A stretch of DNA of 33,779 nucleotides from positions 1-33,779 of the forward strand of contig JASHPY010000010.1 of assembly GCA_030037855.1 (NCBI GenBank), in the 5' to 3' direction. Both the position numbers and the translations under genes were made by a program. The number at the start of each line of letters is the position of its first letter. Within the stretch, counting starts at the first letter, position 1. Positions 24,904 to 29,864 of this stretch are shown piece after piece. The notes under the pieces are model-generated. The model ran no database searches and was not told the origin of the DNA. It was given only the letters and a program-made list of their open reading frames with translations. This DNA is from Thermoplasmata archaeon. Lineage in GTDB: Archaea > Thermoplasmatota > Thermoplasmata > Lutacidiplasmatales > UBA184.

Positions 24904-25920
24904 CTAGAGACCGCGGGTTCTTGGGCTCTTTGGGGACGGGTCGCGGACCTCGGAGGTGGTGAGGGGGAGCGACCGTTCCCAGCTCGCGCTCACGCGTCGG
25001 CCGGGGAGCATCGCGGCCCCGGGCGCCGCGAGGCGCGCCTCGACCCGCTCCCCGTCGTCGGTCCGCAGGAGAACGACCGACTCTCGCCCGACCGTACCGG
25101 CCGCCTCGACCGTGAGCGACAGCGGCCCGCCTCCGTCCGGCCGGAGGGTCACGTCGGTCGGATGCACCGCGACCGCCCCGGACGGGTCCGAGAGAACGTT
25201 GTAACCCAGGAAGCGGGCGGCGAGCGCCGTGCGGGGACGGCCGAAGACCTCGTCCGGAGTCCCGACCGACTCGAGCGAGCCGGCGAACAGGAGCCCGAGT
25301 CGGTCGGCCAGGAACAGCCCTTCCTCCCGGTCGTGCGTGACGTGGATCGCGGCGATGCCGAGCGCGGTGAGCGCTCGACGGAAGTCGGTCCGCAGCTCCT
25401 GCTTCAACTCCGGGTCGATCGACGCGAACGGCTCATCGAGCAGCACGAACCGCGGCCGAGCCGCGAGGGTCCGGGCGAGCGCGACCCGGTGTCGCTCGCC
25501 GCCCGAGAGCTGGGCGGGCGTCCGGTCCTCGAACCCCCCGAGGTGCAGGAGCTCGACCATCTGCCCGACGACCGCCTCGACCTCGGGGCGTTCGCGTCGC
25601 TGGAGCAGCGGAGCGTAGGCGATGTTCTCGAAGACCGTGCGATGGGGGAAGAGCGCCGGTTCCTGAAACATGAGCCCGATCCCCCGCCGGTGAGGCGGGG
25701 TGTCGGTCACGTCCTGCCGGTCGAGCAGGACCCGTCCTTCGGTCGGCCGCTCGAGGCCGGCGATGCACCGGAGGAGGGTCGTCTTGCCGCTCCCGTTGGG
25801 TCCGAGGAGCACGAAGTATTCTCCGGGCGCGACCGCGAGCGATACCGACCGCAGCACGGGCGTCGCGCCCCACGCCGCGGAAAGCGACTCGACCGCGAGC
25901 CACGGCTCAGAGCTCGACAC
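24904..25920 (-). CDS. ABC transporter ATPase, probable thiamine importer (ThiQ-like)
   Basis: This 338-aa ATPase has Walker A GPNGSGKTT, Q-loop FQEPALFPHRT, signature LSGGERHRVALARTLA, Walker B FVLLDEPFASID and switch histidine in IHVTHDREE. The last ~100 residues form a TOBE-like regulatory domain (VAVHPTDVTLRPDGGGPLSLTVEAAGTVGRESVVLLRTDDGERVEARL), typical of the CUT1/Fbp-type group rather than the short ThiQ. It starts at GTG 25920, overlapping the permease end by 14 bp. The thiamine assignment comes from the operon's TPP riboswitch, while the sequence alone would also fit an Fe or spermidine importer. Confidence 0.88.
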   Translation of the reverse strand: MSSSEPWLAVESLSAAWGATPVLRSVSLAVAPGEYFVLLGPNGSGKTTLLRCIAGLERPTEGRVLLDRQDVTDTPPHRRGIGLMFQEPALFPHRTVFENIAYAPLLQRRERPEVEAVVGQMVELLHLGGFEDRTPAQLSGGERHRVALARTLAARPRFVLLDEPFASIDPELKQELRTDFRRALTALGIAAIHVTHDREEGLFLADRLGLLFAGSLESVGTPDEVFGRPRTALAARFLGYNVLSDPSGAVAVHPTDVTLRPDGGGPLSLTVEAAGTVGRESVVLLRTDDGERVEARLAAPGAAMLPGRRVSASWERSLPLTTSEVRDPSPKSPRTRGL

Positions 25921-27529
25921 GCCGACCCCCGAGGACCAACGCGAGGAAGACGGCGAGGCTGAGGATCAGCAGCAGGCCCGCGGCGGCGTCCGCGACCGCG
26001 AAGTACCGCGTGTTCGCGAGCGTGTAGAGGGCGACCGGGAGCGTCGCGAACGTCGGCGTCACGAGGAAGTACGTCGCGGTGAACTCCCCGAGCCCGAGCG
26101 CGAAGGCGAAGAGGCCAGCGGTCACGAGCCCGTCCCGGACCCGGGGGAGGTCCGCGTCGAGGAACGCGCCCCAGCCGGTCGCTCCGAGCGTCCGCGCCGC
26201 GTCCCGCTCCTCGGGTCCGAGCGCGGCGAGCGGGATCTCGAGGCTCTGCAGGGCGAACGGCAGCGCGAGCGTCGCCTGACTGAGGATCACGAGCGCCCAG
26301 ACGGTCGACTCGCCGCCCAGGAGCGGCCGCCAGAACTGGGCGAGCGAGAACGCGAGCACGACCGGGGAGAGCAGAAGCGGCACGAACAGGAGCAGTCCGA
26401 CCGCTCCCGCGCGACGGGGGCGCCGTGCGACCGCGAAGCCGCTCAGGATCCCGAGCACGACTGCGATCGCGGCGGCGATGCTCGCGAAGAACAGGGTGTT
26501 CCCGACCGCTCCCTCGATCGAGATCCCGAGGCGATCGGCGGTCGAGGAGGAGAACAGGGCGGCCCACGCGGAGCCGACGCCACCGCCGCCGACCGGCAGC
26601 ACCGTCCGGTAGAGCACCGCCCCGAGGAGCGCGACGACGCCCGCGAGCACCGCGACCGTCTCCGCCGCGAGGGCCCAGGCGAGCGGCGACCGTCCCAGCC
26701 GGGCGCGGCCGACCGGGTCGCTTCCTCCGCCGGAAGCGCGGATCCGTCCGAGGACCCCGAGGTACGCCGCGGTCGGGAGGAGGAACAGGAGGACGATCGC
26801 GACCGAGAGGACCCCGGCCGCCGTCGGCTCGAGCCCGAGCGTGTCCAGGAACCAGACCTGGGCTTCGACCGTGTAGCATCCCGGTCCGCAGAGCAGGAGC
26901 GGAGGGGCGAACGAGAGCGAGCTGAAGAGGAACGTGAGTAGCCCGCCCGCGCACGCGCCGACCCACGTCGGGGGCCCCCAGACGTCGAGGTAGACCCGCC
27001 CCGGGGACGCCCCGAGCGTCGCGGCCGACTCCTCGAGCGACCGCCCGCTCCCCCCGCCGCCGGCGGCGGTGAAGAGGATCACGATCGGGACGTTGAACAA
27101 TAGGTTCGCGACGACGATCGCGGGCAGTCCCGAACCGAGGAACGCGAGCGACGGCACGGCCGAGGAGAGGAGACCGGCCGGGCCGAACAGGTCGAGCACG
27201 CCGAAGACGACCACGAGGCTCGGGAGGAGGAACGGGACGAGCAGGAGCGACCGGACGACCGACCGGCCGGGCCAGTCGAATCGGCCGAGGAAGACGCCGG
27301 CGGGATAGCCGACGGCGACCGCGACCGCGGCCGAGACGCTTCCCTGGACGAGCGAGTTCTCGACGGCGCGCTGGTTCGCGCTCTGGGCGAGGATCGCCGC
27401 GGCTCCCCCGAGACCGCCGGCCGCCGCGAACGCCTGCGAAAAGAGGACGGCCGCCGGGATCAGCGCGAACAGCGCCACGAACGCAACGATCGGGACGAGG
27501 AACGCGGCGTCGCCGCCTCCCCGCCTCAT
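25907..27529 (-). CDS. Fused ABC permease, probable thiamine importer (ThiP-like)
   Basis: This 540-aa permease has two homologous halves of about six TM helices each, as in ThiP/FbpB. Each half carries an EAA-type coupling loop: LEESAATLGASPGRVYLDVWGP and GPEERDAARTLGATGWGAFLDADLPRVRDGL. I chose ATG 27529, which overlaps the binding-protein stop (ATGA). The upstream GTG at 27556 would lie inside the previous gene. It is the middle gene of the importer operon. Confidence 0.88.
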   Translation of the reverse strand: MRRGGGDAAFLVPIVAFVALFALIPAAVLFSQAFAAAGGLGGAAAILAQSANQRAVENSLVQGSVSAAVAVAVGYPAGVFLGRFDWPGRSVVRSLLLVPFLLPSLVVVFGVLDLFGPAGLLSSAVPSLAFLGSGLPAIVVANLLFNVPIVILFTAAGGGGSGRSLEESAATLGASPGRVYLDVWGPPTWVGACAGGLLTFLFSSLSFAPPLLLCGPGCYTVEAQVWFLDTLGLEPTAAGVLSVAIVLLFLLPTAAYLGVLGRIRASGGGSDPVGRARLGRSPLAWALAAETVAVLAGVVALLGAVLYRTVLPVGGGGVGSAWAALFSSSTADRLGISIEGAVGNTLFFASIAAAIAVVLGILSGFAVARRPRRAGAVGLLLFVPLLLSPVVLAFSLAQFWRPLLGGESTVWALVILSQATLALPFALQSLEIPLAALGPEERDAARTLGATGWGAFLDADLPRVRDGLVTAGLFAFALGLGEFTATYFLVTPTFATLPVALYTLANTRYFAVADAAAGLLLILSLAVFLALVLGGRRVEL

Positions 27530-28692
27530 GTCGACCCGGGGTCGATCTCGGTCCACGCGGACACCCAGCCCGGGAGCTCGTCCGCGAGCTCCGTCGGCGT
27601 GATGTCCGCGTTCAGGGGGACGATGGCCGTGGGGTCGATCGCCGCGCTAAAGACCGAGGGAAGCGGCACCGTCGTGTTGGCGGGGTACTCCCACTCGTTC
27701 TCGGGGATCTCGGACTGGACCGTGCCGCTCAGGAACCAGTTCTCGAACTCCTCGTCGAGCGTGAGGTGGGTCGAGCCGCGTACGATCCCGATCCCGTAGA
27801 TCGTGCGCCAGCCGTACTCCGTTCCGTTCCACCAGGAGACGGTCGAGTTGAACTGCCCGGCCTCCCCGTTCGCGGCCGCGTACGCGGGGTCGGTGGAGTA
27901 GCTGACCACCATCGGCGGCCCGCCGGGCGTCGAGAACTCGCCGAACGCGGTCCCCCAACTGGTGGCGGGCGGCGGCAGTCCCTCGGCCGAGAGGTCCTGC
28001 CAGAACGTCTCCCAGTTCTGGTGAAGCACGTCCTCGTAGTACAGGATCTGCCAGACGAGGAACTCCTCGCCGGTGATGTCGTACTCGGGAGACTCGGTCT
28101 CGAGACCCTTTGCCCAGGTCGCGTTCTGCGTGAAGTCGGGGAGCGTGGCCTCGGCGACCGCGCCGCCCGTCGAGGCGGCGAACGTCGAGTTAAAGTCGAT
28201 CGCGAGGTAGCCGTACTCGTACGGCACCGCCGCGTCGTCCGGGCTCAACTCCGAGGCGAGCTGGGGGGAGACGTTCGCGAGCGCCGGGGGCGCGTACGGG
28301 ACGAGCAGCTGGTCGGCCTCGGCGACCGGCGTCGTGATCTCGTCGAGCCCGAGGACGAGGTCGGCGCCGGCCGACCCCTTCTGCGAGACCAGGGTGCTGA
28401 GCAAGGTCCCGGCGGGGCACTCGAGCTCGATGCGGACGTGATGGGCCGCCTCGAACGTGCCGAACACTGTCGAGAAGACCGTCGGATTGCAGTCGACCCC
28501 GCCGAGGAGGCTGGGATAGGTGTAGATGACGAGCGTGGGCTCGCCCGCTGGGGCCAGGTTCGCCTCGTACTCGTAGACGCCGAACCCGGCGACGACGACC
28601 ACGACCGCGACCGTGAGCGCGACGATCGCGCGTCCGACCCGACCCGGACGACGGAGTCGCCGGGGCGCCGGTAACGTGGGAGACGAAGTCAA
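27526..28692 (-). CDS. ABC substrate-binding protein, probable thiamine-binding (TbpA-like)
   Basis: This 388-aa protein has a cytoplasmic Arg-rich start ([11 protein letters not shown]), one N-terminal TM anchor ([22 protein letters not shown]) and an extracellular type-II binding fold starting [14 protein letters not shown], as in TbpA ('LTVYTYDSF'). Aromatic-rich segments (SVQSE.../[23 protein letters not shown]) could stack on thiamine. Six N-glycosylation sequons are visible (for example FNSTF, QNATW, WNGTE, ANTTV), as expected for an exposed archaeal surface protein. The start is TTG 28692. The TPP riboswitch ends about 40 nt upstream and gives the substrate. Confidence 0.85.
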
Positions 28693-28732
28693 GTCCTCCG
28701 CAGGGTGGCGGAGAGTTCCCTCAGGTGCTGCA

Positions 28733-28822
28733 TCGCGTTCCCTTCGCGGGCATTATCCCGATCAGGTTCTTGGGGTCGACGAGGTCCCCCTCGTCCTCTC
28801 AGCCGGTACCCAGCTCCCCCTA
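28733..28822 (-). ncRNA. TPP riboswitch (THI element)
   Basis: On the minus strand the leader reads GGGGGAGCTGGGTACCGG, then CTGAGAGG, then AAGAACCTGATCGGGATAAT, then GCCCGCGAAGGGAACGC. These are the conserved THI-box blocks (CUGAGA, ACCUGAUC, GGAUAAUGCC-GCG-AGGGAA) in the right order, with a variable P3 hairpin (GACGAGGGGGACCTCGTC). It binds thiamine pyrophosphate and controls the importer operon. It starts at the predicted transcription start, and the about 40 nt after it to the TTG is the expression platform. No clear U-tract is seen, so control of translation is more likely than termination. Confidence 0.93.
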
Positions 28823-28847
28823 CCTGCTCGGGCAGGGCCCGGTCGGG

Positions 28848-28855
28848 AATAAGGT
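28848..28855 (-). promoter_or_regulatory. TATA box of the thiamine operon
   Basis: The minus strand reads CCTTATTC, about 26 nt before the first riboswitch base, so the transcript should begin almost exactly at the aptamer. Confidence 0.6.
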
Positions 28856-28884
28856 TTGTCGGAGGAGGTCCGTGCGTGCCGCAC

Positions 28885-28892
28885 CGTTTATG
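28885..28892 (+). promoter_or_regulatory. TATA box of pdxS
   Basis: CGTTTATG predicts initiation near 28915, just before GTG 28917 and 23 nt before ATG 28938. The ATG inside the box (28890) is therefore not a start. Confidence 0.55.
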
Positions 28893-28937
28893 CGGTCGAG
28901 CGGTCTAGCATCGGAAGTGACCGGCACATCGGACCCG

Positions 28938-29864
28938 ATGTCGAAGCTCCGCTTCGGCACGGAACTCGTCAAGCGCGGTTTCGCCCGCATGCAGCAGGGC
29001 GGGGTGATCATGGACGTCACGACCGCGGACCAGGCGGCGATCGCGGAGGAGGCCGGCGCGGTCGCGGTGATGGCCCTCGAGCGCGTGCCGGCCGATATCC
29101 GGGCCGCGGGCGGCGTCGCCCGAATGGCCGACCCGCTCAAGATCCGCGAGATCAAGGAGCGAGTCTCGATCCCGGTGATGGCGAAGTGCCGGATCGGCCA
29201 CACCGCCGAGGCGCGCGTGCTCGAGGCGCTCGCGGTCGACATGATCGACGAGTCGGAGGTGCTGACGCCCGCCGATCCGTTCCGTCACGTCGACAAGAAG
29301 GCGTTCCAGGTCCCGTTCGTCTGCGGTGCGCGAACGCTGGGTGAGGCGCTGCGTCGGATCGACGAGGGCGCCGCGATGATCCGTTCGAAGGGCGAGGCCG
29401 GCACCGGCAACGTCGTCGAGGCGGTCCGCCATATCCGACAGATCAACGACGAGGTCGCGCTCGTAGCGAAGCTCCCCGCGAAGGACGTCGGCGCGTGGGC
29501 CCGCAAAGAGCGGGTCTCGCTCGCCGTGGTGAACGAGGTCCGTAGCCTCGGCCGCCTGCCGGTCGTGAACTTCGCGGCGGGCGGGATCGCGACCCCCGCG
29601 GACGCGGCGCTCTGCCGCATGCTTGGCGTCGACGGGCTGTTCGTCGGGAGCGGGATATTCAAGTCGCAGCATCCGATGAAGGTCGCGCGAGCGATCGTCG
29701 AGGCGTCGACGCAGTACGACCGGCCGGAGGTCGTCGCGCGGGTCTCGGCCGGCCTCGGCGAGCCCATGCGCGGGATCGAGATCGGGTCCCTCGGGTCGGG
29801 CGACCTCCTGCAGTCGCGCGAGTCGACCCCCGCGACCGGCCGGCGGAGCCCCACGACCGCGTGA
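28938..29864 (+). CDS. pdxS: Pyridoxal 5'-phosphate synthase lyase subunit PdxS
   Basis: The 308-aa (beta/alpha)8 enzyme makes PLP from ribose 5-phosphate, glyceraldehyde 3-phosphate and ammonia. Visible motifs are [14 protein letters not shown] (catalytic Asp), [19 protein letters not shown] (Schiff-base Lys), [18 protein letters not shown] (second Lys) and the phosphate-binding [35 protein letters not shown] 28938 matches the family N-terminus. GTG 28917, leaderless from the TATA box, is the alternative and adds 7 residues. The glutaminase partner PdxT is not in the window. It is divergent from the thiamine operon. Confidence 0.95.

Follow-up and report, generated by a model that had tools for sequence, protein, structure and literature searches.

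The window (the whole stretch of DNA analysed, 33,779 nt from a soil Thermoplasmata archaeon) carries an importer operon on its minus strand. A thiB-like gene with a TTG start (27526-28692) encodes a thiamine-binding protein that scored 94.9 bits against TIGR01254 (cut-off 93.4) and whose best relative in the PDB is the thiamine-binding protein 2qry (E 2.6e-16); the thiB equivalog cut-off was not reached. Beside it on the same strand lie a thiP-like fused permease gene (25907-27556, start uncertain), with two BPD_transp_1 stretches and a weak full-length thiP match, and a gene for an ABC ATPase with a TOBE domain (24904-25920; PF00005, PF08402). These matches support the view that an aptamer at 28722-28831, described below, precedes a ThiB-PQ-like importer operon whose substrate-binding protein belongs to the thiamine subfamily. 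Upstream of the operon and divergent from it is pdxS, for PLP synthase. In its start region (28886-28940, plus strand) it has a TATA box about 26 nt before a GTG at 28917, which is in frame with a later ATG at 28938, so that pdxS may be leaderless from the GTG.

We scanned the whole window against Rfam with cmscan and obtained a single match above cut-off, to the TPP riboswitch RF00059 at 28831-28722 on the minus strand. The match covered model positions 1-105 of 105 and was significant, with 60.3 bits against a gathering cut-off of 54.3 and an E value of 1.3e-9, which bears out the TPP assignment made by the sequence-only reading. All of the conserved THI blocks which that reading had listed are present in the window (CTGAGA, GACCCCAAGAACCTGAT, ATAAT and GCGAAGGGA). 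The comparison covered about 180 relatives, with 95 unique leaders aligned, and the conserved core (CUGAGA, ACC..GAACCUGAU, UAAU, GCGnAGGGA) was found in the window and in these 95 leaders. The 5' strand of helix P2, GGGGGAGC (28813-28820, minus strand), is invariant except for its first base and is conserved in 92-95 of the 95 leaders, and the 3' core, GCGAAGGGA in the window (28739-28747, minus strand), reads GCG[A/C/T]AGGGA in 95 of 95. Within this 3' core, AGGG (28743-28740) is the putative Shine-Dalgarno sequence (SD) of a leader open reading frame, and in the RF00059 structure it is paired in P4 once the aptamer has folded. Membership of the TPP class is secure apart from the short P1 helix and the binding of TPP, which is predicted.

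The promoter could be placed by comparison of the same leaders. A BRE/TATA-type element (AAACCTTATTCC) lies at 28846-28857 on the minus strand, at a box position conserved in the 95 leaders: counted from the first G of P2, an AT-rich box stands at -32 to -28 and A's occupy -36/-35. Between the box and the conserved block the sequence is nearly free, and conservation starts abruptly 3 nt before P2, with the centre of the TATA box 26-27 nt upstream of this edge. The usual distance from TATA to start in archaea is 26-27 nt. The fixed box, the abrupt edge and the usual spacing together lead us to infer that transcription starts at about 28823, at a base that is G in 83 of 95 leaders, 3 nt upstream of P2 and within the 5' strand of P1. 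The sequence-only reading had put the start at the first base of the aptamer. Promoter geometry in the 95 leaders does place it at the aptamer and not downstream, but a few bases inside the Rfam match, and not exactly at the first base.

The P1 helix of the RF00059 model contains mismatches in the window, and if transcription starts at 28823, only 2-3 bp of the helix remain, a consequence that the sequence-only reading had missed. It could be argued from this near loss of P1 that the aptamer is degenerate and has lost TPP binding. We regard this as extremely improbable, since the core blocks are invariant over 95 leaders and the element was found in 97 of 106 genomes of the window's order. The element shares with RF00059 (the THI element) in general the aptamer core, the thiamine transport gene downstream and the expected OFF logic. 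It differs in beginning about 3 nt before P2 with a P1 of 2-3 bp, and in having an archaeal promoter and a leader ORF in its expression platform.

The sequence-only reading had described a platform without a U-tract, and within 28500-28950 we likewise found neither a U-tract nor a terminator-like site. Bacterial TPP riboswitches are known to act by ligand-dependent termination, and transcriptional control of that kind might be envisaged here too. The lack of a terminator in this region suggests instead that the platform is translational, as do the conserved platform elements described below, and we consider transcriptional control very improbable. The earlier suggestion that the output mechanism could be examined at this locus held in that the platform can be read as translational, but it had missed both a hairpin beside the start of thiB and a leader ORF.

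The leader ORF (28689-28733, minus strand) has 14 codons, and its TGA stop overlaps the thiB start as TTGA. Its start codon occupies a fixed place, with AUG (84 leaders) or GUG (6 leaders) exactly 5 nt after the aptamer GGGA in 90 of 95 unique leaders. Changes from AUG to GUG were few, 2 on the tree. In all 90 of these leaders the ORF stops between -5 and +23 nt of the thiB start, where 73 would be expected from shuffled sequences, and in 67 of 90 the stop is in the NTGA register (52 expected from shuffles). The leader start and the thiB start are 38, 41 or 44 nt apart in 74 leaders, and the other 16 have a distance of 40 nt. Openness of the frame was rejected as proof of coding: internal stops occur in 2 of 90 leaders in frame 0 and likewise in 2 of 90 in frame 2, so that an open frame by itself is weak evidence. 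A count over the leader column table gave no clear GC3 coding signal in the leader ORF. In leader L002 (family f2) the main ATG lies 36 nt downstream of the AUG that follows the aptamer and shares its frame, so that this AUG may extend the N-terminus of the main protein and not open a leader ORF of its own.

The main caution on the leader-ORF reading concerns its ribosome binding site. Aptamer cores in the window's family read GCGAAGGGA or GCGCAGGGA, with one GCGTAGGGA, and never GCGGAGGGA, which makes for a weaker SD than in elements whose core directly drives a gene. The small number of AUG-to-GUG changes also counts against the leader-ORF reading, as does one genus, g2, that has the aptamer but no leader AUG.

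A hairpin, UCUCCGC..GCGGAGG, lies 2 nt before the thiB start (28695-28714, minus strand) and folds in nearly all leaders. When arms were swapped among 58 leaders of one length class, the native arms had a mean of -13.4 kcal/mol and the swapped arms -10.9 kcal/mol (z = -8.0, somewhat inflated by relatedness among the leaders). About 74% of the leaders have a GGAGG-like motif before thiB and about a quarter have no good one. The distance from motif to start is usually 0-3 nt (median 2 nt), and only 4% of leaders combine a canonical SD with canonical spacing. Among transporter genes that start directly after the aptamer, the median distance is 7 nt and 96% are canonical. With its spacing of 2 nt, against 7 nt at genes under direct control, the stem resembles an obstacle to new initiation more than a good SD kept hidden.

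These observations bear on a simpler account, in which the element is an ordinary translational riboswitch whose hairpin sequesters the SD or start of thiB, whose anti-sequester is the P2 5' strand (GGGGGAG) or other aptamer sequence, and whose leader ORF is incidental. The strong conservation of the hairpin and the GGAGG-like motif in some 74% of leaders fit this account. So does the pairing of the P2 strand with the 5' arm of the hairpin in the free ensemble of a number of leaders (L004-L007, L014, L023, L029, L045), as does genus g2 (L039, L077, L080), in which the aptamer is followed by such a platform although the leader AUG is absent. The motif, however, sits mostly too close to the start codon, at 0-3 nt, or in about a quarter of leaders is not good, and the fixed AUG/GUG, the NTGA overlap and a conserved stop in the +1 frame are left unaccounted for. 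We therefore think this simpler account somewhat unlikely.

We calculated the effect of aptamer folding on the hairpin in 90 leaders. Enforcing P2 and P4 had a median cost of 2.6 kcal/mol (range 0-10.8) and raised the expected number of hairpin pairs from 3.0 to 6.1, with an increase in 56 of 90 leaders and a decrease in 3 of 90. In the leader of the window the rise was from 0.3 to 6.7. Within the limits of such energies, both the sign and the magnitude of the predicted shift suit an OFF switch driven by its ligand. General pairing between the aptamer 5' strand and the bases that directly follow the aptamer was rejected as a conserved feature, native pairs being not clearly superior to swapped ones (-18.0 and -17.7, permutation sd 0.25); this anti-aptamer pairing is nonetheless clear in some leaders.

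Another conserved feature of the leaders is a +1-frame stop codon (frames being counted from the leader ORF), in the window a TGA at 28721-28723 (minus strand) just before the hairpin. Such a stop occurs within the first 18 nt in 89 of 90 leaders, where about 20 would be expected, mostly at position 10 and otherwise mostly at 13 or 16. Position 10 holds TGA in 31 leaders, TAG in 27 and TAA in 15, and never TGG. Mapped on a binding-protein tree, the type of stop changed at least 27 times while a stop was kept in 86 of 88. In nearly every leader the stop directly precedes the hairpin. The 5 leaders that have no leader AUG have no +1-frame stop either. This stop is strongly conserved and is not accounted for by the leader-ORF relay model.

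Candidate starts in the same frame lie within the aptamer. The AUG in loop L5 (28751-28753, minus strand), 20 nt before the leader AUG, is present in 78 of 90 leaders, and 11 of the 12 others have an NUG at -38. The +1-frame ORF could itself be regulatory if ribosomes started inside the aptamer, at the L5 AUG at 28753 or at the NUG 38 nt before the leader AUG, stopped before the hairpin and, by covering its 5' arm, freed thiB. The near-constant stop at 10, 13 or 16, with its 27 or more changes of type, and the near-complete set of in-frame starts would agree with this. A link between the -20 and -38 starts was suggestive in the counts but not significant on the tree; three leaders with the AUG at -20 and without the leader AUG have no stop; and the ORF has no good SD. 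An AUG in L5 is, moreover, common in TPP aptamers generally. On balance we consider a regulatory +1-frame ORF quite improbable. We propose instead, with low confidence, that the +1-frame stop guards against out-of-frame ribosomes. Most leaders also have a stop in or near L5 that closes frame 2. A tentative extension of the leader-ORF relay, possible though more doubtful than the relay itself, would combine an aptamer-gated leader ORF with a selected +1-frame stop that bars ribosomes starting inside the aptamer in that frame from the hairpin.

TPP elements elsewhere in the phylum are followed by platforms of several kinds. In other families the start codon after the aptamer is the transporter gene's own in at least 52 leaders, and among the samples tested the directly controlled genes were of the sodium-symporter, MFS or ThiB type. 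In leaders L101-L207 a transporter gene or an overlapping leader ORF mostly begins within about 4-9 nt of the core GCGGAGG, downstream of it, and some of these genomes bear two TPP elements. Short ORFs after the aptamer overlapped or abutted the transporter start in 19 of 25 leaders, against 4.3 expected by shuffling, some of the 19 being close relatives. In those families, elements with the core GCGAAGG usually have their start codon in another place, with its own SD. Family f6 (L117, L121, L159, L167, L195) has this core and no transporter start beside the aptamer; a distinct element, for example CTTTTCTGGCAGGAG, carries an SD at the usual distance from the gene. The positional homology across the phylum is stronger support for the leader ORF than the openness of its frame, and the relay seems to have arisen from, or alongside, direct control by the aptamer SD.

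Together these data suggest, with a probability that we put at roughly 0.6, that the element is a translational OFF switch on the thiamine import operon which acts through the leader ORF by termination-reinitiation. The mRNA would begin about 3 nt upstream of helix P2. Once TPP is bound, the aptamer would fold and bury its own AGGG in P4, so that the leader AUG would be poorly used, and the freed downstream sequence would form the hairpin touching the thiB start, turning the importer off. When TPP is scarce, a ribosome helped by the AGGG would start at the leader AUG, translate the 14-codon leader ORF, melt the hairpin on the way, stop at the UGA that overlaps the UUG of thiB and re-initiate there. 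The sequence features that point to this mechanism are the aptamer, the promoter geometry, the fixed AUG/GUG, the stop/start overlap, the covarying hairpin and the absence of a canonical thiB SD; from them we infer TPP binding, start-site use, leader translation and re-initiation, step by step.

Several known systems share parts of this arrangement. In direct translation attenuation, riboswitches use the purine-rich 3' end of their aptamer in place of a ribosome binding site (Barrick and Breaker 2007, PMC2258182). This is just the arrangement of many relatives in other parts of the phylum, and the window's family likewise has a start codon a few nt past the purine-rich 3' strand (+5, in 90 of 95 leaders). 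The controlled start in this family, however, opens a leader ORF that ends at the thiB start and not a transporter gene, and the aptamer offers the weaker AGGG in place of a strong SD (GGAGG). The B12 riboswitch of Mycobacterium tuberculosis ppe2 has an AUGA-overlapping uORF whose translation is essential (Kipkorir 2024, PMC11260477). Both systems join a riboswitch to a uORF with an NUGA overlap (TTGA in the window; this register in 67 of 90 relatives) and a downstream gene that lacks a proper SD (only 4% canonical in the window's family). They differ in ligand class and domain of life, and the system in the window further has a uORF that begins right next to the aptamer, a hairpin that protects the downstream start and the conserved +1-frame stop. 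Termination-reinitiation is itself proven in archaea (Huber 2019, PMC6728339), for gene pairs with an ATGA-type overlap and strict coupling like those proposed here; those pairs have no ligand-sensing RNA, and the upstream partner is a full gene.

As of 2021 the sole archaeal riboswitch shown experimentally was the fluoride riboswitch of Thermococcus kodakarensis (PMC8241225). We found no experimental mechanism for archaeal TPP switches in the literature, and a search of openly available papers returned none on TPP riboswitches in Thermoplasmatota or Poseidoniales. A leader-ORF layer on a TPP riboswitch is apparently unreported so far, though parts of the system may have been mentioned earlier.

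The near relatives of the binding protein are metagenome-assembled genomes titled 'Thermoplasmata archaeon', in keeping with the lineage that the sequence-only reading had drawn from the presence of the riboswitch. The source genome has a GC content near 71% and a size of about 1.75 Mb; Lutacidiplasmatales genomes are described as having about 69% GC and 2.1 Mb (PMC9287336). Among about a hundred genomes of the order, f3 was the one family in which ThiC and Thi4 turned up at full length. Its two genomes (G002, G003) have both enzymes and gave no match to the TPP riboswitch, opposite to what is seen in the window's family. In the latter we found one ThiC fragment, in one genome, and only short fragments of Thi4; these genomes are incomplete, yet the absence is consistent over about a hundred of them. 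Since ThiC and Thi4 are apparently missing, the family that bears the riboswitch seems to rely on thiamine import or salvage. Their apparent absence and the TIGR01254 score above cut-off support the earlier identification of thiamine as the importer substrate.

The evidence for the leader-ORF relay is comparative throughout, and the relay would give an archaeal TPP switch a concrete, testable output mechanism. One aptamer family appears to have been wired in several ways within a single phylum, by direct start, by leader-ORF relay and by a separate SD hairpin, and the window's family may provide an archaeal case of the little-studied riboswitches that act via leader ORFs.
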